64,000 bases of DNA, taken from contig NZ_CP083560.1 of NCBI RefSeq assembly GCF_025143825.1, forward strand, positions 1,426,001 to 1,490,000, given 5' to 3'. A model generated the notes under the pieces. That model searched no databases. It saw only the letters and a program-made list of their open reading frames with translations, and was not told where the DNA came from. The translations under genes were made by a program, and so were the position numbers. Below are positions 18,723 to 30,650 of this stretch, in pieces (the first letter of the stretch is position 1; each line of letters begins with the position of its first letter). This DNA is from Sulfitobacter sp. S223. Its GTDB lineage: Bacteria > Pseudomonadota > Alphaproteobacteria > Rhodobacterales > Rhodobacteraceae.

Positions 18723-19945
18723 TGGACGGCACCAAAGGTTTCGAAGACGCCCTGACAGGCGAACAGAAAATCCGCAACTTCAACATCAACTTCGGCCCGC
18801 AGCACCCTGCGGCACACGGCGTTTTGCGTCTGGTGCTTGAGCTGGACGGCGAGATTGTAGAGCGCTGCGATCCGCACATCGGCCTGCTGCACCGTGGCAC
18901 TGAAAAGCTGATGGAAAGCCGCACGTACCTGCAAAACCTGCCGTATTTCGACCGGTTGGATTACGTGGCGCCGATGAACCAAGAGCATGCCTGGTGCTTG
19001 GCGATCGAGCGTCTGACGGGCGTAGAAGTACCCCGCCGCGCAAGCCTGATCCGTGTGCTTTACTCCGAGATCGGCCGTATTCTGTCACACCTTCTGAACG
19101 TCACCACGCAGGCGATGGACGTTGGCGCGCTGACCCCACCGCTGTGGGGCTTTGAAGAGCGCGAAGATCTGATGATCTTTTATGAACGTGCATGTGGCGC
19201 GCGTCTGCACGCGGCGTACTTCCGCCCCGGTGGTGTGCATCAGGATCTGCCTGATGCGCTGATCGACGATATCGAGACTTGGACGCATAAATTCCTGAGC
19301 GGCTTCATGATCGATATCGACACGTTGCTGACAGAAAACCGCATCTTCAAACAGCGCAACGTCGATATCGGTGTTGTGACTGAACAAGACATCTCTGATT
19401 GGGGGTTCTCCGGCGTGATGGTGCGCGGCTCCGGCCTTGCATGGGATCTGCGCCGCTCACAGCCGTACGAATGCTACGACGAATTTGACTTCCAGATACC
19501 TGTTGGCGTGAATGGCGACTGCTATGACCGCTATCTGGTACGCATGGAAGAAATGCGCCAGTCCGCCAGTATCATGTTGCAGGCGATTGAAAAGCTGCGC
19601 GCACCGGAAGGGAAGGGCGATATCCTTGCCCGTGGCAAGATCACGCCGCCCAACCGCACGGATATGAAAACCTCGATGGAAAGCCTGATCCACCACTTCA
19701 AGCTTTACACCGAAGGCTTCCACGTACCTGCCGGTGAAGTTTATGCGGCCGTTGAAGCACCCAAGGGCGAGTTCGGCGTGTATCTTGTTGCCGATGGCTC
19801 CAATAAACCGTACCGCGCCAAGCTGCGCGCGCCGGGCTATTTACACCTGCAAGCGATGGACTATATCGCCAAGGGACACCAGCTGGCTGATGTGGCTGCG
19901 ATCATTGGTACGATGGATATCGTATTTGGTGAGGTAGACCGGTGA
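18719..19945 (+). CDS. nuoD: NADH-quinone oxidoreductase subunit D
   Basis: 49-kDa-type subunit that forms the quinone pocket with NuoB; 408 aa. Seen: [19 protein letters not shown] with the quinone-site His, [13 protein letters not shown], and the C-terminal [19 protein letters not shown]. Two tandem ATG codons are possible starts; the first overlaps the nuoC stop (ATGA). A small extra gene follows before nuoE. Confidence 0.98.
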
Positions 19946-20262
19946 CGGCACAGATGCCTAAACTGCTCGCCGCGCTGGCTCTGGTTTTCTCCCAATTGTC
20001 TTCGCAAGCGGCGCTCGCGGAGACGTCGCTTTCGATTTATGGTATATCTGAAGTGCTTGCCAAGTCTACGAGCACTTCAATGATTGCTCCCGATATGCTT
20101 CTCTCTGCATCTGCTGATGGCGGATATCTGTGCCGATTTGATATTCAAAAAGGCATTTTTGCTCAGGTCGAGCAAGGCGTGGCAATATCACCGGGCTATC
20201 TACCTCGCTGGACATGTTTAAGTGTCCAAGAATTAGAAAAACTTACTATAGGTGGCAACTGA
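19942..20262 (+). CDS. Small secreted protein of unknown function between nuoD and nuoE
   Basis: 106 residues, starting at a GTG that overlaps the nuoD stop (GTGA). It has a signal peptide-like start ([22 protein letters not shown], cleavage probably after an Ala near residue 27), then a mixed polar region with two cysteines (in YLCRFD and RWTCLSV) that could form a periplasmic disulfide. The end overlaps nuoE by one base (TGATG). I do not recognise a family. Base composition near its end is more AT-rich than that of its neighbours. Confidence 0.65.
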
Positions 20263-21521
20263 TGCTACGTAGATTACACCCCGAACAACCCGAAGCATTT
20301 GCCTTTACCCCAGCTAACCAAGCATGGGCAGAAGCGCAGATAACGAAATACCCCGAGGGCCGTCAGGCATCGGCGATCATTCCGTTGTTGTGGCGCGCTC
20401 AGGAGCAAGAGGGCTGGTTGTCACGCCCCGCGATCGAACATGTATCTGAAATGTTGGGTCTGGCATATATTCGCGGACTAGAAGTCGCGACTTTCTACTT
20501 TATGTTCCAGCTTCAACCTGTTGGTTCCGTTGCGCATATTCAGGTTTGCGGCACGACGTCCTGTATGATTTGCGGGGCAGAGGACCTGATCGGTATCTGC
20601 AAAGAAAAGATCGCCCCGAAAGCACACCAGCTTTCAGCGGATGGTAAGTTCTCTTGGGAAGAGGTCGAATGTCTGGGCGCTTGCTCGAACGCACCAATGG
20701 CGCAGATCGGCAAAGACTATTACGAAGATCTGACTGCCGAGCGTTTTACACAGATGTTGGATGAGCTTGCTGAAGGTAAGGTGCCGACACCCGGACCCCA
20801 AAACGGGCGTTATGCGTCGGAGCCACTTGGCGGGCTGACCTCTCTGACCGAATACGACAGCGGCAAGACGCAGTATAATGCCTCCGTACAGCTGGCGTCT
20901 GATATCGGCGATACGGTTAAACGGATCGACGGCACCGAAGTACCACTGCTAGCGCCATGGCAGGGCAAAGCTGCCAATAAAGGCAAAGCGCCCGCAAAGG
21001 CAAAGCGTGATGACATGATGCCGCCGTCCGGTCCGGATGGCGCGCAGGGCGGTCGGACCAAAGCAGAGAAATCTGCCACGCGTTCCGTTGGCGCTGCGTC
21101 TGATCAAGTTTCAGAAGCGGCAGGCGAGGCACCCGAGGCGAAAGCCAAGGCCAAACCCGCCCGTGGCAAGGTTGCGCCTGCACCGAAAACAGACACCAAA
21201 GCGGAATCCGGCAAGGCATCCACAGGTGCCGGTAAGAAGCCACGCACCATGAAAGCACCGCGTAAGTCGGGTGCCGATGACCTCAAGATGATCAAGGGCG
21301 TTGGTCCCAAGCTTGAGACCATGTTGAATACAATGGGCTTTTTCCATTTTGACCAAATCGCAAAATGGGGGCAAGATGAGCTCGCATGGGTTGACCAGAA
21401 CCTTGAGGGGTTCAAAGGCCGCGCGTCGCGCGACAATTGGGTTGATCAGGCGGGCCGGCTTGCGCGGGGGGAAGAAACTGAATTCTCTGCAAGGGCTGGA
21501 AAAGACGGCCGCTATGAATAG
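20262..21521 (+). CDS. nuoE: NADH-quinone oxidoreductase subunit E with C-terminal helix-hairpin-helix extension
   Basis: 24-kDa-type subunit carrying the 2Fe-2S cluster N1a of the NADH-binding arm. The thioredoxin-like part occupies about residues 1-170, with cluster ligands Cys96, Cys101, Cys137 and Cys141 ([18 protein letters not shown]). The total of 419 aa is about twice the usual length. After residue 170 come a conserved spacer, a low-complexity Ala/Lys/Pro linker (about 230-335) and a terminal domain (about 337-410) beginning [18 protein letters not shown]. That resembles the helix-hairpin-helix domain of COG3743, also found appended to other alphaproteobacterial proteins. The same domain ends the next gene product. 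Start ATG at 20262. Confidence 0.95.
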
Positions 21522-21558
21522 CGGCTGACACAGTCCATCTGGGGGATAAAGTAAAGAC

Positions 21559-22551
21559 ATGGCTTTTAAAGAAAAAAATACGGAGTGCCAGAAAACCTGT
21601 TGGTTGGTTGCTGCACTGGCGGGATTGCTTGCGATGGTGTTGCTGTATGCGTTGGCCGATTTCGGCGCGTTTAAGGCGATCTTCACCGGTGCGCTTCTTG
21701 GCTTCATTCTGGGCGTCGTGTTGATGCTGACAATGTGTAGATCGCAAGCATCGACAGGGGCGGAGTCGTCTTCGGTTAAATCTGGTACAACCGTAGGCTT
21801 AACTTCAGCGGACAGCAAAACCGTCGCGAGCTCTGCCACGCAAGCGTCGACAACAACCGCACAGACAACAAGTGCAGGCGCTGCCGCTGCTGCTGCGTCG
21901 GCCGATGTTTCTGCCGCGAAGGAAGACACAGCCAGCCCTGTTGATATTTCTACCGCTGCATCAGACACCTCAGCCCCATCGGGCACAATGGCGCAGGTCA
22001 ATACCACGCCGTCCGCCGCTTTGAGCATGCCAGTCGCCGAACCTTCTGACGTTTCGGACGCGGAGGCAAAGGCTGCGAAAACTACCGCTAAATCCTCTGC
22101 ATCTGACGCAAGCAAAGCCAAAGCTGCGCCAAAAGCGAAACCAGCGGCCAAAGCCAAAGCAGCAACAGCGAAGCCAAAAGCAGCTGCTGCCGCACCGAAA
22201 GCAAAAGCTGCACCTGCGGCACCCAAAGCAAAGGCGGCAGCTGCAGCGAACAAAGCTAAGGCCGCAGCCCCTGCCAGCAAGAAGCCAGAGATGCTGAGCG
22301 CGCCGCGCGCTGAGGGTAAAGATAACCTCAAGCTGATCAGCGGTGTTGGTCCCAAACTGGAGCAGACATTGAACGATCTGGGTGTCTACCATTTCGATCA
22401 GGTCGCAAAATGGAAGAAGAAAGACATCGCGTGGGTCGATGAGAATCTGCGCTTCAAGGGACGGATCGAGCGCGACGACTGGATGTCACAAGCCAAGATT
22501 CTGGCAAAAGGCGGCGAGACCGAATTCTCGGCGCGCAAAAAGAAAACCTGA
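21559..22551 (+). CDS. Membrane-anchored Ala/Lys-rich protein with NuoE-like C-terminal HhH domain
   Basis: 330 residues in three parts. Two hydrophobic helices (about 14-37 and 38-62) come first. A long Ser/Thr/Ala region then grades into Lys-Ala repeats with KAKAA and APKAK units (about 180-255). The terminal domain (about 257-325) has DNLKLISGVGPKLEQTLND, FDQVAKWKKKDIAWVDENL and RIERDDWMSQAKILAKGGETEFSAR, closely matching the end of NuoE. If the helices are in the inner membrane, the basic tail faces the cytoplasm, near where the complex I arm sits. The function is unknown; the HhH fold suggests nucleic-acid or protein binding. The start follows GGGGATAAAGTAAAGAC. Confidence 0.8.
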   Translation: MAFKEKNTECQKTCWLVAALAGLLAMVLLYALADFGAFKAIFTGALLGFILGVVLMLTMCRSQASTGAESSSVKSGTTVGLTSADSKTVASSATQASTTTAQTTSAGAAAAAASADVSAAKEDTASPVDISTAASDTSAPSGTMAQVNTTPSAALSMPVAEPSDVSDAEAKAAKTTAKSSASDASKAKAAPKAKPAAKAKAATAKPKAAAAAPKAKAAPAAPKAKAAAAANKAKAAAPASKKPEMLSAPRAEGKDNLKLISGVGPKLEQTLNDLGVYHFDQVAKWKKKDIAWVDENLRFKGRIERDDWMSQAKILAKGGETEFSARKKKT

Positions 22552-22566: not shown

Positions 22567-22791
22567 GTGGCTAACAACGACGACACACTGTCACGTAACG
22601 GGCGGCGCCTTGCTTTGGTGAGCGTTGTGGGCGCTTTCGCCTTTATGGGGATTGAGTTCGCTGGGGCCACTTACGGGTGGTCAAATCAGACAATGGGCCT
22701 TCTGGAGCTTGGCATTGCGGCCATGTTCTTGTGGGTCTTTATACAAGCATTCAGAATGTGGCGTCAGCGCCAGTCTGAGAAAGACGGATAA
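22567..22791 (+). CDS. DUF5337-like small membrane protein
   Basis: 74 residues starting at GTG 22567 behind AGGAG (22556-22560). Two hydrophobic helices (about 16-36 and 42-62) are flanked by basic RNGRR and WRQRQ, so both ends are probably cytoplasmic. It matches my memory of DUF5337, a Rhodobacterales family located before nuoF. Function unknown. Confidence 0.72.
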
Positions 22792-22796
22792 GCATC

Positions 22797-24089
22797 ATGT
22801 TGCAGGACAAAGACCGGATTTTCACGAATATCTACGGCATGCATGACCGTACCCTCAAGGGTGCGCAGGCGCGTGGCCATTGGGATGGTACGGCGGCAAT
22901 CATCAAGAAAGGCCGCGACTGGATCATCGACGAGATGAAAGCTTCCGGTTTGCGTGGCCGTGGTGGTGCGGGTTTTCCGACTGGTCTGAAATGGTCCTTC
23001 ATGCCGAAAGAAAGCGACGGCCGCCCCAGCTATCTGGTGGTTAACGCCGACGAATCCGAACCCGGCACATGTAAAGACCGTGAGATCATGCGCCACGATC
23101 CGCACACGCTGATCGAGGGCTGCCTGATTGCAAGCTTCGCGATGAATGCGAATGCTTGCTACATCTACATTCGCGGCGAATACATCCGCGAAAAAGAGGC
23201 GCTGCAAAACGCCATCGACGAAGCCTATGAGGCCGGTCTGGTGGGCAAGAACGCCGCAAAATCCGGTTGGGATTTCGACATCTACCTGCACCACGGGGCA
23301 GGGGCATACATCTGCGGTGAAGAGACTGCTTTGCTTGAAAGCCTCGAGGGCAAAAAGGGCATGCCGCGGATGAAACCACCGTTCCCTGCAGGTGCGGGCC
23401 TTTATGGTTGCCCGACAACTGTGAACAACGTAGAAAGCATCGCGGTCGTCCCGACCATCCTACGCCGTGGTGGTGGTTGGTTTGCTGGATTTGGCCGCCC
23501 GAACAACGCAGGCACAAAGCTGTTCGCGATCTCGGGGCATGTGAACAACCCGTGCGTGGTTGAAGAAGCGATGAGCATTTCGTTCGAAGAACTGATTGAA
23601 AAGCACTGCGGCGGTATTCGTGGCGGATGGGACAACCTGAAGGCTGTTATCCCGGGTGGATCGTCTGTTCCGATGATTCCCGGAAAGGAAATGCGCAACG
23701 CGATCATGGATTTCGACTATCTGCGTGAGCAGCGATCGGGCCTTGGAACGGCTGCGGTCATCGTAATGGACCAGTCAACTGATGTGATCAAAGCGATCTG
23801 GCGTCTGGCGAAATTCTACAAGCACGAAAGCTGTGGTCAGTGTACACCCTGCCGCGAAGGCACAGGTTGGATGATGCGTGTGATGGATCGTCTTGTTAAA
23901 GGTGACGCCGATCCCGAAGAGATCGACATGTTGCTTGACGTTACCAAGCAAGTCGAAGGCCATACCATTTGTGCGCTCGGCGATGCGGCTGCTTGGCCTA
24001 TTCAGGGGCTTATCCGTCACTTCCGCGACGAAATTGAAGACCGGATTGCGCACAAGCGTGGCACGGTTTCTCCTGTAGCGGCGGAATAG
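22797..24089 (+). CDS. nuoF: NADH-quinone oxidoreductase subunit F
   Basis: 51-kDa subunit where NADH is oxidised: binds NADH, FMN and 4Fe-4S cluster N3. 430 aa. Seen: [16 protein letters not shown] and [19 protein letters not shown] for FMN and NADH, and the cluster ligands [13 protein letters not shown] plus the distal Cys in [14 protein letters not shown]. Standard length, start at ATG 22797. Five non-complex-I genes separate it from nuoG. Confidence 0.98.
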
Positions 24090-24093
24090 CAGC

Positions 24094-24501
24094 ATGGAAA
24101 TTTTCGCACCCTACGCCCACGCGATTGCAGCACTGGCCCTTTGGGCGCTGCTGGTTTGTGTGCTTTCGATGCTGTCCACAATTGGACGTACGGCAGAGAA
24201 CCGCTGCGATTGCGGGAAGCCCAAGCGGGACTATAGCGACCCTGTCTACCGCCGAGAACGCGCGTTCATGAATGCGGTTGAAGGCGGCGGTCCGTTCATC
24301 GCGGTGACCATTGCGGCCATTCTGGCCGGAGGATCGGTTTTCTGGGTAAACCTCTTTGCATCGCTTTATGTGGTGGCGCGTGTGGCGATGGCCGTGGTCC
24401 ACATCAAGACAGAAAACCAGCCAGCCCGTTCACTCTGCTTTGTGGTGGGCTTGGTCTGCATCATTGCGCTGGCGGTGATTGTCTTGTTCGCGGTTTTCTA
24501 A
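24094..24501 (+). CDS. MAPEG family membrane protein
   Basis: 135 residues with four hydrophobic segments (about 8-30, 66-82, 83-100, 112-134) and the MAPEG-like stretch RRERAFMNAVEGGGPFIAVTI. MAPEG proteins include glutathione-dependent membrane enzymes; this sub-branch has no known substrate. A CDCGK cysteine pair in the first cytoplasmic loop is unusual. Its start lies four bases after the nuoF stop. Confidence 0.78.
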   Translation: MEIFAPYAHAIAALALWALLVCVLSMLSTIGRTAENRCDCGKPKRDYSDPVYRRERAFMNAVEGGGPFIAVTIAAILAGGSVFWVNLFASLYVVARVAMAVVHIKTENQPARSLCFVVGLVCIIALAVIVLFAVF

Positions 24502-24639: not shown

Positions 24640-25107
24640 GTGGCGCAGATGCATCTAGCCGAGTTGAACCTCGGTGTTCTCAAACATGACTGGGACGATC
24701 CGCGTGTGCGGGGCTTTGTGGATGGGCTTGATCTGGTCAATCGCGTTGCGAAGCGTTCTCGGGGATTTGTCTGGATGATGGACGGCGAGGCGATGGATGC
24801 CGCGCAGAATGATCCCGATGGTCCATTGGGAGGTAATCCGCGCACCGCAAGCACGCTGTCAGTCTGGGAAGATGTCGCCAGCCTTGAACATTTCGTCTGG
24901 AACACCGTGCACAAACGTTTTTATGACCGCCGCGCGGAATGGTATGACGCGGTCGAAAGTCTGCGATTTGCGATGTGGTGGGTTCCGGTTAACCACCGCC
25001 CTGATATGCATGAGGCGATCACGCGGTTCAGGCACCTTGAGGAACATGGCGACAGTGACATAGCTTTCGGCTGGGACTATGCGACGACGCAGGTCTGTAA
25101 AGAATAG
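24640..25107 (+). CDS. DUF3291 family protein
   Basis: 155 residues resembling DUF3291, a small alpha/beta (dimeric ferredoxin-like) family possibly related to antibiotic monooxygenases. Seen: HLAELNLGVLKHDWDDPRV, DVASLEHFVWNTVHKRFYDRR and AMWWVPVNHRPDMHEA. It starts at GTG 24640 after GGAG. Cytosolic. No reaction is assigned to the family; the position inside the nuo operon is the only functional hint. Confidence 0.78.
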   Translation: MAQMHLAELNLGVLKHDWDDPRVRGFVDGLDLVNRVAKRSRGFVWMMDGEAMDAAQNDPDGPLGGNPRTASTLSVWEDVASLEHFVWNTVHKRFYDRRAEWYDAVESLRFAMWWVPVNHRPDMHEAITRFRHLEEHGDSDIAFGWDYATTQVCKE

Positions 25108-25117
25108 GAGATCGTAC

Positions 25118-25357
25118 ATGGGTTTTGTCCGTAATATCTTGGACGGTCTGCTAAGCTTCGGGGCATTTCTGCTGACGCTTGGCGTGTTTGCCGGGCCTTC
25201 CTGGGCCACTTATCTGGCGGTTTCCGGTGGCTTGGTGACACCTTGGATCTATGTGCTGTTGGTGGGGATGCTCTATGTCGGGCTTAACTTGGCTATTGCG
25301 TTCTTGCGCAAGGCGTTGGACGGAATTTCTCCTTTGCGGGAGCGAAAAAGGGGATAG
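25118..25357 (+). CDS. Small two-helix membrane protein
   Basis: 79 residues with start ATG 25118 behind TAGGAG. Two hydrophobic helices (about 10-34 and 42-64) and a basic C-terminus (PLRERKRG). I do not recognise a family. It is encoded in the nuoF-nuoG interval with other small membrane or exported proteins. Confidence 0.6.
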   Translation: MGFVRNILDGLLSFGAFLLTLGVFAGPSWATYLAVSGGLVTPWIYVLLVGMLYVGLNLAIAFLRKALDGISPLRERKRG

Positions 25358-25447
25358 GCGAAGAAGCACTGGCCCTGTCCGACAATTTCGGCGATAACGG
25401 GCGCAAGTTTGTAAATAACCGCACCAAAGCGTGTGGAGGAGACAGTG

Positions 25448-25780
25448 ATGAAGATTTGGACTGCGCTTGTGGTATGTGCCGGACTGACAGCAGGCTGCAC
25501 ATCATCCGAAGACCGCATCCTGTTTGACGGGCAGTACTTCAACGCAAAATTGCGCAAAGTGGACCGGCAGCTTGATGTCTTCACAGTCACCGTCAAACCA
25601 GTGTCAAAATCTGTGGAAGGGGCTTTGGCCGCTGGCCAGTATGAGGCGATCATCCATTGCGTAAACTACTTCGGATCATCCGATATCGAATGGACAGTCG
25701 GGCCGGACACGCCGACTGAACAGCTCAGCGTCGTGAATGATGTGCTGACATTGCAGGGCCGTTGCCCTAGCTCACGATAG
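25448..25780 (+). CDS. Small lipoprotein of unknown function
   Basis: 110 residues starting at ATG 25448 after GGAGGA. The N-terminus is a clear lipoprotein signal with lipobox LTAGC (Cys near residue 16), so export and lipidation are predicted. The mature part has two further cysteines (IIHCVNYFG and GRCPSSR), as in small periplasmic disulfide domains. Family not recognised. In the nuoF-nuoG interval. Confidence 0.68.
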   Translation: MKIWTALVVCAGLTAGCTSSEDRILFDGQYFNAKLRKVDRQLDVFTVTVKPVSKSVEGALAAGQYEAIIHCVNYFGSSDIEWTVGPDTPTEQLSVVNDVLTLQGRCPSSR

Positions 25781-25892: not shown

Positions 25893-26294
25893 ATGCGTAA
25901 CCTGATCTTAACAATTAGTCTTATTTCACTGTCGGCCGGGATTGCAGCGGCCCAAGGCAACCTGCGTGATGTAAAGTCGATCGATAACGCAGTATTCGAC
26001 GTTGCGGTTGCAGACAAAATCCGGAAAGAATGTCCGGAGATTTCTGCCCGCATTATAAAGGCGCTGACGTTGTATCGTCAGGTGCGCGCAGAGGCGCGAT
26101 CCTTGGGTTTTACCGACGCGCAGATCGAAGAGTATGGCGACTCGGACAAGGAAAAGGCGCGGTTGCGGGCCAAGGGCGATGCATATTTCCGCGCCAACGG
26201 GGTTGTAGCATCTGACCCGCAAAGCTATTGCGCGCTAGGGCGCAAAGAGATTCAAAAATCGAGCCGCATCGGCTCGTTGCTGAGAGAAAAGTGA
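25893..26294 (+). CDS. DUF5333 family periplasmic protein
   Basis: 133 residues with a signal peptide ([18 protein letters not shown]). The mature part contains [18 protein letters not shown] and a closing [20 protein letters not shown]. The two cysteines and the helical pattern match DUF5333, known to me as a Rhodobacterales family of unknown function. A predicted disulfide would join the N- and C-terminal helices. Lies five bases before nuoG. Confidence 0.78.
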
Positions 26295-26298
26295 CATC

Positions 26299-28314
26299 AT
26301 GAGCGATATTCGCAAGATCATCATCGACGGTAAGGAAATCGAAGCCGAGGGCGCTATGACGCTCATTCAGGCGTGTGAGCAGGCAGGCGTGGAAGTTCCG
26401 CGTTTTTGCTACCACGAACGTCTGTCGATCGCCGGTAACTGCCGGATGTGTCTTGTTGAAGTGGTTGGCGGCCCGCCAAAGCCTGCGGCATCCTGCGCGA
26501 TGCAGGTGCGTGATCTGCGCCCGGGCCCCGAAGGCCAGCCGCCCGTTGTGAAAACCAATTCACCCATGGTGAAGAAAGCCCGCGAGGGCGTGATGGAATT
26601 TCTGCTCATCAACCATCCGCTGGATTGCCCGATCTGCGATCAGGGTGGCGAATGCGATCTTCAGGATCAGGCGATGGCCTACGGTGTGGATTTCTCCCGC
26701 TACCGTGAGCCGAAGCGCGCGACAGATGATCTGGATCTTGGCCCGCTGGTCGAAACGCATATGACACGCTGCATCTCTTGCACCCGCTGTGTGCGCTTTA
26801 CCACCGAAGTGGCAGGCATCACGCAGATGGGGCAAACCGGCCGCGGCGAGGATGCAGAAATTACCGCCTATCTGGGCGAAACACTTGATAGCAACCTGCA
26901 GGGTAACATTATTGATCTGTGCCCTGTTGGTGCGTTGGTCTCCAAGCCTTACGCATTCACCGCGCGTCCTTGGGAACTGAGCAAAACAGAATCGATCGAC
27001 GTGATGGATGCCCTTGGTTCCAACATCCGCGTAGATACGAAGGGCCGTGAAGTCATGCGCTTCCTGCCGCGTAACAATGACGGCGTGAACGAAGAATGGA
27101 TTTCCGACAAGACGCGCTTTGTCTGGGACGGTCTGCGCAAACAGCGCCTTGATACTCCTTACATCCGTGAGAACGGCAAGCTGCGTAAAGCCGACTGGCC
27201 CGAAGCGTTGGCAGCTGCTGCTGCTGCGATGAAGGGTAAAAAGCTTGGCGGTCTGGTCGGTGATCTGGCTCCTGTTGAGGCAGCCTTTGCGCTGAAGCAA
27301 TTGATCGAGGGGCAGGGCGGCGTTGTCGAATCCCGCACCGACGGGGCAAAACTGCCCGCCGGTAACCGGTCCGGTTATGTCGGCACTGCCACTATAGAAG
27401 ATATCGATACCTGCGAAGCGATCATGTTGATCGGCACCAATCCTGCTGTTGAAGCGCCTGTTCTGAACGCCCGCATCCGCAAAGCGTGGAGCAAAGGCTG
27501 CGACGTAGGGCTGGTTGGTCCGAAAGTCGATCTGACCTATGAATACAACCACATTGGCGACGCACCACAGGTCATGGATGATCTGCTGAAGCGTGATCAT
27601 TCCGACGTGGCTGAAAAATCTTCGATGATCATCGTCGGCATGGGCGCCTTGGCGCGGGAAGATGGCGCCGCGGTTCTGGCGGCTGCGATGGCTCTTGTTG
27701 AAAGCACAAAGTCCGGTTTCATGGTGTTGCACACTGCCGCGTCCCGTGTCGGCGCAATGGATGTTGGCGCTGTGGCTCCGAACGGCATCACGGATGTGCT
27801 TGAAGCTGACGTGATCTATAACCTTGGTGCAGATGAAGGCGATATTCCAGCCGGTCCGTTCGTTATCTATCAGGGCAGTCATGGTGATCGTGGTGCGCAC
27901 CGCGCAGACATCATCCTGCCAGCCGCCGCCTATACCGAAGAATCAGCATTGTTCGTAAACACAGAAGGCCGTCCGCAGCTGGCCCAACGCGCCAGCTTTG
28001 CACCCGGTCAGGCGAAAGAAAACTGGGCCATCCTGCGCGCCCTTAGCGCCGAGCTGGATGCGGTATTGCCATTTGATTCGATTGCCGCACTGCGTCAGGC
28101 GCTTGTCAAAGCGCATCCACATCTGGGGCAGGTCGATCAGCTGGCGGAAAACACGTGGTCGGTTGAGCCCAAGGGCAAGATTGATTCCGCGCCGTTCTCT
28201 TATGCGATTGCCGATTTCTATCTCTCAAACCCGATTGCACGGGCGTCCAGCCTGATGGCCGAACTTTCGTCCAACGCCAAAGCACGTCGTACGAAGGCTA
28301 TGGCGGCAGAGTGA
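26299..28314 (+). CDS. nuoG: NADH-quinone oxidoreductase subunit G
   Basis: 75-kDa iron-sulfur subunit, 671 aa. The N-terminal 2Fe-2S ferredoxin domain has [20 protein letters not shown] His/Cys 4Fe-4S site is in [19 protein letters not shown], and a second 4Fe-4S site has [10 protein letters not shown] with a distal Cys in [10 protein letters not shown]. The C-terminal molybdopterin-oxidoreductase-like domain is the short mitochondrial/alphaproteobacterial form. Its stop overlaps the following lipoprotein gene (GTGA). Confidence 0.98.
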
Positions 28315-28694
28315 GAAGCATGGGCCTGATCGCTTTGCTGGCGGCTGCCGCTTGCACGCCAGCGATTCCCACAGCCGAAGACTTTATCCCTGAATACAAA
28401 GGGGTAGAGACTGTTTTGCTGGATGGCGATCTGGTGCAGTTTAATGTTGCTATGACGAAGGCTTTGGCGTCAGAAAATGTCGCGGCCTACGCAGAATGTG
28501 CTGCAGCGCAGTATACGTTAATTCGCGGGTATGGTTTTGCACGTCATGTAAGGACAAATGTGGCAATTGAGGGTGGCATTTGGCGTGCCGATGCTGTTTA
28601 CACAATCTCGCCGAGCCTGCCTAAAGGCTTGAAGACTATTGATGCCGAGGTGGTCACGCAAAACTGCCGCGAACAAGGCATTCCTACGGTGTGA
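28311..28694 (+). CDS. Putative lipoprotein between nuoG and nuoH
   Basis: 127 residues from GTG 28311 (overlapping the nuoG stop), or 124 from ATG 28320. The N-terminus [14 protein letters not shown] has a lipobox-like LAAAAC followed by polar residues, so lipidation is likely. The mature part holds a Cys pair (AECAAAQ, TQNCREQ) and an [12 protein letters not shown] strand. No family recognised. Seven bases from nuoH. Confidence 0.65.
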
Positions 28695-29742: not shown

Positions 29743-30231
29743 ATGACCGACTATACACGTCACGCCAAATACTTCCTGTTGCAGGATTTTTATCAAGGCA
29801 TGAAGCTGGGCATCAAATATATGTTCAAGCCGAAGGCGACGATCAACTATCCGCACGAGAAGGGGCCTCTGTCTCCGCGCTTTCGTGGTGAACATGCGCT
29901 GCGTCGGTATGCCAACGGCGAAGAACGTTGCATCGCCTGCAAGCTCTGTGAGGCGGTTTGCCCCGCTCAGGCAATCACGATTGATGCTGAGCCACGTGAG
30001 GACGGCAGCCGCCGCACCACGCGCTATGACATCGACATGACAAAATGTATCTATTGCGGTTTCTGTCAGGAAGCTTGCCCTGTGGATGCGATTGTTGAAG
30101 GGCCAAACTTCGAGTTCTCGACTGAGACACGCGAAGAGCTGTACTATGACAAGGCAAAGCTGCTGGAAAACGGCGACCGTTGGGAAGCCGAGATTGCCCG
30201 CAACCTTGAAATGGATGCACCTTACCGATGA
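29743..30231 (+). CDS. nuoI: NADH-quinone oxidoreductase subunit I
   Basis: TYKY-type subunit of 162 aa with two 4Fe-4S clusters (N6a, N6b). Both ligand sets are visible: [16 protein letters not shown] and [16 protein letters not shown]. The N-terminal amphipathic stretch [13 protein letters not shown] rests on the membrane. It starts one base after nuoH and overlaps the next gene by four bases. Confidence 0.98.
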
Positions 30232-30650
30232 CCGATAAGAACCCTTGGGAAGATATGATGCGGCAGATGCAGGATATGGCTAAGACCTTTCCTGCAATGG
30301 ATGCGTTCACGCCTAAAGGGTTCGAGGCCATGATGGGGTTGATGCCAAAGGACCTGATGGAAACGTTCTTTGGTAACAAGCTTAACCCGGACGGGCTGGA
30401 TGCAAAGACACGGCTTCTGCTGACATTAGCAGGGCTGACGATGCAGGGCGCGCAAAATGATGTGGCCATTCGTCAGACAGTGCGCCATGCCGCAGAGGCT
30501 GGTGCGCATCGCCAACAAATTATCGAGACGATTGGTCAGATGGCCCTCTTTGCGGGATTACCCGCAATGCAGCGTGCCATGGATCTGGCCCAACCTGTGC
30601 TGGACGAGATGTCGGAGCAGGCGGACAAGAACAAGGAAGGTGACGCATGA
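30228..30650 (+). CDS. Carboxymuconolactone-decarboxylase-like protein between nuoI and nuoJ
   Basis: 140 residues. The C-terminal two-thirds (from [20 protein letters not shown] to [19 protein letters not shown]) has the all-helical CMD/AhpD pattern, with a conserved-looking His in ETVRHA-type position ([10 protein letters not shown]). The AhpD redox pair CXXC is absent and the protein contains no cysteine, so a peroxidase role is unlikely. A Met-rich N-terminus ([12 protein letters not shown]) precedes it. Overlaps of four bases with both neighbours tie it to the operon. Confidence 0.75.

Follow-up and report, generated by a model that had tools for sequence, protein, structure and literature searches.

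According to the available part of its description (PMC12079452), the reaction centre–light-harvesting 1 complex (RC-LH1) of the phototroph Dinoroseobacter shibae contains protein-O, a 239-residue subunit of which a hairpin, Met8 to Cys59, alone is visible. The hairpin, which holds a Cys10–Cys59 disulphide, is lodged between the RC and LH1 and is placed like protein-U with a root-mean-square deviation under 1.8 Å. The same text locates the protein-O gene between nuoE and nuoF, likens the C-terminal domain of its product to that of NuoE and gives its function as unknown. Protein-U (PufY) of the Rhodobacter sphaeroides RC-LH1, as its sources describe it in part, has 53 residues and no tail, forms a hairpin between the RC and LH1 and is encoded away from the photosynthesis cluster; it resembles the protein-O family as a small two-helix hairpin in that position. 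Here we analyse a homologue of protein-O, referred to below as O, together with the NuoE encoded next to it, in a 64,000-nucleotide stretch of the genome of Sulfitobacter sp. S223 (NZ_CP083560.1, positions 1,426,001 to 1,490,000 of the forward strand; hereafter the window).

The core of the observation on tail and gene order is already in print for one phototroph, D. shibae (PMC12079452, in the part available). What is new is the placement of the RC-LH1 protein-O in a family that is encoded in a respiratory operon and is common in genomes without a reaction centre. Also new are a covarying cysteine pair, a linker motif shared by NuoE and O, and the finding that in four comparisons no part of O is as well conserved as its tail. 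The literature searched (titles and the starts of abstracts, with few subscription journals) held the D. shibae paper alone on protein-O and, for O, nothing beyond the phototrophs; neither the linker motif nor the cysteine pair was the target of a search. We propose, with a probability of about 0.4, that O holds a further tail of the NuoE type at the membrane and that a single cytoplasmic partner, most probably nucleic acid, may be gripped by both tails.

This proposal draws on an analogy with the Caulobacter phasin PhaH. In the accessible portion of a review (PMC13052382; the original work is Salinas 2023), PhaH is reported to bind DNA nonspecifically by its C-terminal end, through a helix-hairpin-helix (HhH) domain, and to position polyhydroxybutyrate (PHB) granules along the nucleoid.

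The C-terminal tails of NuoE and O

The window NuoE has 419 amino acids, and its residues 24–169 match Pfam 2Fe-2S_thioredx (PF01257, E 2.7e-50). Because the protein passes the cut-off of NCBIfam NF009040 (PRK12373), a family of long NuoE with 400 positions (609.7 bits against 514, residues 1–416), the long form is an already known annotation, from which the window NuoE differs in nothing of substance. The tail-less NuoE chain 8qby_E (239 amino acids, presumably from Paracoccus denitrificans) aligns to residues 1–234 alone, so that an earlier note on this DNA, which called NuoE about twice the normal length, gave a fair description. The Ala/Lys-rich linker that it had pointed out was likewise confirmed: its net charge is +14, basic in this genome, and it is the least conserved part of NuoE in the four comparisons given below.

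The next gene encodes O, which phmmer relates to the PDB chains 8yy9_O (E 3e-32) and 9wqv_a (E 4.5e-31), in both cases mostly via tail and linker. As the earlier note had anticipated, two membrane helices stand at the N-terminus of this 330-residue protein. An AlphaFold2 (AF2) model places them at residues 4–32 and 37–60, with block values of the predicted local distance difference test (pLDDT) of 93–97 over residues 11–60. The Ala/Ser/Lys-rich linker that follows (net charge +10) is indeed similar to that of NuoE, and is predicted to be disordered, with block pLDDT 46–56 over residues 71–240. Modelled alone, the O tail reaches pLDDT 91 and has an HhH-type fold.

The two tails were said to match, and they are homologous: a single comparison of the last ~80 residues gives 48/78 identical positions (62%), 100 bits and E 4e-35, a likeness that at the level of sequence is not due to chance. 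ETEFSAR, one of the motifs quoted for the pair, stands in both, whereas FDQVAKW is the O version only and reads FDQIAKW in NuoE. Pfam and NCBIfam searches with both tails are in line with the view that they are HhH-type and form one domain family, as in each of them the same stretch is hit by the L21, S2 and PhaH profiles of NCBIfam. The tail positions of the PhaH profile (NF045508) match both (E 3e-19 and 6e-18), and the tails alone score 70.1 and 65.8 bits against this profile, with all matches in its C-terminal part. NuoE and O are not themselves PhaH, scoring 74.8 and 62 bits, respectively, against a cut-off of 250; what they have in common with it is the C-terminal HhH domain family, PhaH being a granule-binding protein, NuoE a redox subunit and O a membrane hairpin. 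Matches of the tails to Pfam HHH_5 (PF14520) reach 17.6 and 13.3 bits, below the gathering cut-off of 27, and those to Pfam Cdd1 are also below cut-off.

The tails are well conserved. We compared the regions of both proteins with those of another Sulfitobacter locus (L250) and of L255, L257 and L258; as synonymous divergence (dS) is at or near saturation in these four comparisons, the ranking of regions alone counts. In all four the tail is the best-conserved region of O. Relative to L250 it is 94% identical, which is the level of the NuoE core, while the hairpin stands at 59% and the linker at 37%. Relative to L255, L257 and L258, the O tail is 83, 68 and 69% identical and the hairpin 48, 23 and 22%, with the NuoE core higher (87–88%).

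O in genomes with and without a reaction centre

The window O and D. shibae protein-O (PDB 8yy9, 8yz2, 9jpb, 9km0) have in common the position between nuoE and nuoF, the long linker and the NuoE-like HhH tail; their two-helix hairpins, with Cys10 and Cys59 or Cys60, are probably also counterparts. A PDB sequence search with the O tail returned 8yy9 chain O, from the D. shibae RC-LH1 (E 8.1e-29, query residues 4–76 of 80), and 9wqv; the tails of the two proteins are homologous. The window hairpin alone, as a single sequence, matches 8yy9_O weakly (i-E 0.29). A hairpin profile (A4) matches 8yy9_O, partly by construction as the D. shibae row is included, and also 9wqv_a (E 8e-4), a match not known to be by construction. 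Among the 12 PDB matches of the hairpin profile (E up to 10) there is no chain named protein-U or PufY. Hairpins of the O family are found in PDB 8yy9, 9lts and 9wqv, all three of which hold reaction-centre M chains. In 9lts and in 9ltv, which also holds an M chain, a 76-residue chain named 'Protein LRC' matches the D. shibae protein-O hairpin; a literature search for these two codes found nothing on it.

Unlike D. shibae, the window genome (99.99% complete) has no match to Photo_RC (PF00124), so that the partner of O must differ, and we file the window O as a protein-O homologue and not as an RC-LH1 subunit. The wider sample was a family set of 198 genomes, 83 of which have a Photo_RC match and are counted as phototrophs. 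NuoE matches at E 1e-60 were obtained in 191 of them; 120 loci, those of the matched genomes G000 to G125 minus G022 and G102 (contig edge), were fetched, and removal of G028 and G098, with no nuoF in the stretch, left 118 usable nuoE–nuoF loci. Tests that account for kinship use a NuoE+NuoF tree of these 118 loci and count independent pairs, with a median p.

Of the 46 phototrophs 35 have a tailed O, and of the 72 other genomes 41 (Fisher p 0.048); when only genomes at least 90% complete are counted, the figures are 31/40 and 40/70. On the tree, the association is not significant (5.3 versus 1.4 independent pairs, median p 0.22). Such a frequency in genomes without Photo_RC rules O out as a photosynthesis gene, and since O is present in the window without a reaction centre, its role must be wider than photosynthesis. 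These counts of tailed O are firmer than that of O of any kind (89/118 loci), which follows a loose hydropathy rule and includes at least one doubtful ORF (open reading frame; G054). Among 80 named loci, the best 80 of one scan, the NuoE tail occurs in 78 and O in 65, and many are titled Sulfitobacter, Roseovarius or Litoreibacter.

In the hairpin, Cys10 and Cys60 align with the D. shibae cysteines in an alignment whose 42 rows were hand-chosen from 76, and they covary: in 75 tailed hairpins (a later rule adds one, L052), with shifts of a few alignment columns allowed in the scoring, both are present in 51 and neither in 23, with one odd case. As the pair is frequent without Photo_RC (31/40 hairpins, compared with 20/35 in phototrophs), it suggests that a disulphide of the D. 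shibae type exists in bacteria that have no reaction centre. Within the phototrophs, the pair is rarer in those bearing PufX (7/19 versus 13/16 of the others, p 0.016). A loss of the pair with PufX was considered and set aside, being non-significant on the tree (median p 0.25). PufY might conceivably be a decayed O; the two genomes with the strongest PufX matches, G045 and G051, have neither a tailed O nor a NuoE tail at the locus.

The cysteine pair would suit a structural plug or assembly factor, in which the hairpin alone mattered and the tail were incidental, after the analogy with protein-U drawn by the describers of protein-O. So would the resolved hairpin of the D. shibae RC-LH1 in its protein-U-like position (PMC12079452, available part) and the existence of a tail-less O made of the hairpin and a linker motif. 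A glutamine at the start of helix 2 points the same way, as it occurs in 11/35 phototroph hairpins and 0/40 others (Fisher p 8.5e-5; Bonferroni 0.02 over 239 tests), and it is a possible adaptation to RC-LH1. However, this signal is non-significant on the tree (median p 0.125, with 3.8 versus 0.0 independent pairs), and an association almost as strong comes from a control with tail columns (Bonferroni 0.05). Furthermore, in each of the four comparisons the hairpin falls far short of the tail in conservation, and O is common in genomes without any reaction-centre gene. We consider it unlikely that O acts solely in this way.

The two tails and their partner

The earlier note had regarded the two tails as a matched pair, which in the strict sense is not supported. 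Of the 118 loci, 65 have both tails, 28 the NuoE tail only, 11 the O tail only and 14 neither. Strict co-occurrence was rejected, as its raw Fisher p of 0.02 vanishes on the tree (2.8 versus 2.7 independent pairs), along which the NuoE tail changes 17 times and the O tail 27 times. Mirror-tree coupling of NuoE and O is unspecific: its partial r is 0.13 over 65 loci, and in a set of 26 genomes it is 0.29, compared with 0.39 for NuoE–L21 and 0.32 for O–L21. Nonetheless, NuoE and O tails of the same genome are more alike than sister genomes predict, with a mean excess of 0.03 that is positive in 42 and not in 23 of the 65 loci (p 0.001 and 0.004; p 0.06 and 0.001 in the 26-genome set). There is no such excess for O–L21 or NuoE–L21 tails (n=26). 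The likeness speaks for some link between the two tails, although gene conversion or shared selection would both explain it.

In part of the family, NuoE and O also have a linker element in common. The motif LPGQ.ELA.RKGTW.Y (consensus VKPSxxLPGQxELAxRKGxWxYE) is found in O at 28 and in NuoE at 8 of the 118 loci; L041, L066, L069, L072, L112, L143 and others have it in NuoE and/or O, between nuoE and nuoF. D. shibae carries it in both proteins, whereas the window NuoE and O lack it. Where NuoE has the motif, O has it too in seven of the eight loci (p 1.5e-4; on the tree, 4.3 versus 0.0 independent pairs, median p 0.125). In some genomes O consists of the hairpin and the motif without an HhH domain, and NuoE of G078 too ends in the motif. 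At E 1e-5, a profile built from these linkers and run against the 198 genomes gave 57 matches, spread over 44 genomes and many of them by construction. Some stand in tandem (three in G097, two each in G002 and G161), and all but two lie, by eye, within about 2 kb of nuoE or, in G133, on a contig that has two tail copies and no match to the NuoE core. The two exceptions are at C1:1424288 of G035 and C4:210596 of G176. In the former (D. shibae; L189:1432-2433), the motif stands N-terminally in an ORF that looks, by eye, like an ABC-type ATPase and lies beside a dihydropyrimidinase-like ORF.

The HhH domain itself has further carriers. A search of the window's own genome with the O tail led to three places: O, NuoE and, third, an ORF that we interpret as ribosomal protein L21. 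HhH-tailed L21 (PRK12278) and S2 (PRK12311) have the same tail family by profile and differ from NuoE and O in the carrier. The ETEFS extension, scored with a loose regular expression, follows 51/95 NuoE and 51/76 O tails, compared with 1/26 L21 tails and 0/9 tails of a third gene. This third HhH-tailed ORF, which has no hairpin, lies between nuoE and nuoF at L038, L047, L056, L060, L081, L087, L099, L114 and L120; several of these ORFs show, by eye, a phasin-like N-terminus. Outside the family the extension occurs on NuoE-like and some membrane-anchored proteins, and alphaproteobacterial families other than this one have NuoE-like proteins that combine the same tail with the extension (L222, L224). 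Of 240 genomes drawn from the class, 21 carry the domain at E 1e-6, including three from the window's own family. By eye, the carriers are NuoE-like proteins, L21 and several others whose N-terminus holds a hydrophobic helix. This range fits a general adaptor. Some of the proteins with the N-terminal helix look coiled-coil.

A domain found on NuoE, O and L21 here and on further proteins elsewhere, present in the phasin and S2 profiles and gained or lost as often as the tree records could be a mobile, near-neutral add-on, spread by recombination among Ala/Lys-rich C-termini and with no dedicated role at complex I. Yet the tail sequence is conserved, NuoE-like proteins of other families have the same tail and extension, and the linker motif occurs almost only beside nuoE; we regard such a neutral spread as improbable.

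Protein docking would be another use of the tails, which could bind each other or a common protein and so hold complex I near the membrane complex of O, that is, RC-LH1 in phototrophs and another complex elsewhere. The near absence of the ETEFS extension from L21 and third-gene tails, the same-genome excess that does not extend to L21, and the linker motif common to both proteins all speak for this idea, as do the acidity and the structural neighbours of the domain described below. It is weakened by the independent losses of the two tails, by mirror-tree values no higher for NuoE–O than for NuoE–L21, by gene conversion between adjacent genes as another source of same-genome likeness, by the NuoE tail being rarer and not commoner in phototrophs, and by the presence of the tail on L21 and on membrane proteins other than O. 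On balance we find docking doubtful.

We return to nucleic acid, which is the best-supported ligand by analogy, given that both tails match the tail of the PhaH profile and that PhaH is reported to bind DNA. Of the two kinds of partner that the earlier note had allowed, nucleic acid and protein, kinship with PhaH would favour the former. The first Foldseek neighbours of the tail model are RadA/Rad51, DNA polymerase iota and NusA AR2, which contain HhH motifs; all of them are weak matches.

Several observations weigh against this proposal. First, losses of the two tails do not coincide, each tail being gained and lost on the tree independently of the other. Second, the NuoE tail is rarer in phototrophs (30/46 versus 63/72 others; Fisher p 0.005, tree-based median p 0.375), a distribution that lends no support to a tether to the reaction centre. 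Third, no Foldseek match reaches E 0.001 (best E 0.19), and the 50 matches listed include SAM domains along with NusA AR2, both presumably protein-binding. Fourth, net negative tails predominate (72/93 NuoE, 55/76 O), with class means of −2.3 to −3.5 over the HhH, an acidic charge that is unusual for a general DNA binder; the window tails themselves carry +5 (O) and −3 (NuoE). Finally, linker charge is not conserved (positive and negative in 49 and 40 NuoE linkers and in 29 and 45 O linkers, respectively), which rules out a general basic linker as the DNA binder.

Combining these findings, we propose the following tentative model. The hairpin of O would sit in the inner membrane, from which the long disordered linker and the HhH tail would hang into the cytoplasm. 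The NADH-oxidising arm of complex I would present the NuoE tail there on a flexible linker of its own. Both tails would grip the same partner, which would most probably be nucleic acid, bound irrespective of its sequence in the manner reported for PhaH. In this way a loose tether to the nucleoid (or to RNA) would hold both complex I and the membrane complex, whichever it is, that the hairpin joins. Phototrophs have taken the hairpin into RC-LH1; in bacteria without a reaction centre it must be seated elsewhere, or nowhere. We infer the orientation of the tails, nucleic acid as their ligand and tethering as their purpose.

Neighbouring genes and implications

The features discussed above are collected in Table 1. 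DUF5337, which separates O from nuoF, is present in 106 of the 118 nuoE–nuoF gaps and is small, with two hydrophobic stretches. Kinship of DUF5337 to a solved chain was not credible: there were two matches, both designed beta-barrels, with a best E of 0.014. Eight extra small ORFs lie in the nuo operon, at 19942-20262, 24094-24501, 24640-25107, 25079-25357, 25433-25780, 25893-26294, 28311-28694 and 30228-30650. MAPEG, DUF3291, DUF5333 and the carboxymuconolactone decarboxylase family are among them, and four of the eight have no Pfam match at E 0.001. An Ala-rich open frame of 414 amino acids runs antisense to nuoE and O (21111-22355, minus strand) and is probably a by-product of their composition.

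Table 1 Features of the nuoE–nuoF interval, in window coordinates
Feature	Position	Strand	Basis
nuoE gene, ATG at 20262, stop codon 21519-21521	20262..21521	+	
NuoE core, thioredoxin-like [2Fe-2S] subunit, residues 1-235	20262..20966	+	PF01257, NF009040, 8qby_E
NuoE linker, Ala/Lys/Gly/Pro-rich	20967..21269	+	composition
NuoE tail, HhH-type domain (14-residue start at 21276-21317)	21276..21473	+	profile matches, homology to modelled O tail
NuoE C-terminal extension after HhH (ETEFSAR ...)	21474..21518	+	position, pattern
Gene of the protein-O homologue (O)	21559..22551	+	phmmer to 8yy9_O and 9wqv_a; position nuoE–nuoF
O two-helix transmembrane hairpin	21568..21738	+	AF2 model
O Cys10 of covarying pair	21586..21588	+	covariation; D. 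shibae disulphide
O Cys60 of covarying pair	21736..21738	+	covariation
O linker, predicted disordered	21751..22308	+	AF2 pLDDT, composition
O tail, HhH-type domain, from DNLKLISGVGPKLE (22321-22362)	22321..22515	+	profiles, homology, AF2 model
O C-terminal extension (ETEFSAR ...), final short helix in model	22516..22548	+	pattern, AF2 model
DUF5337, neighbour outside the pair	22567..22791	+	PF17272, E 1.9e-16
nuoF	22797..24089		

The proposal can be widened, although in this form it is speculative and doubtful. Membrane energy complexes of alphaproteobacteria may be tethered to the nucleoid by PhaH-type HhH domains on disordered arms, complex I via the NuoE tail and RC-LH1 or another complex via O. 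The RKGTW.Y motif would then be a second, nuo-specific docking element shared in part of the family, and protein-O a borrowed respiratory tether.

Considering (i) the occurrence of O without a reaction centre, (ii) its place in the operon and (iii) the tail that it shares with NuoE, the question of what protein-O does moves from photosynthesis to respiration and becomes testable in an ordinary heterotroph, where the linker motif and the cysteine pair are small, concrete targets for mutation. If the tails bind protein, there would be a dedicated scaffold around complex I; if nucleic acid is what they bind, the complexes of respiration and of photosynthesis would have a physical tie to the nucleoid.

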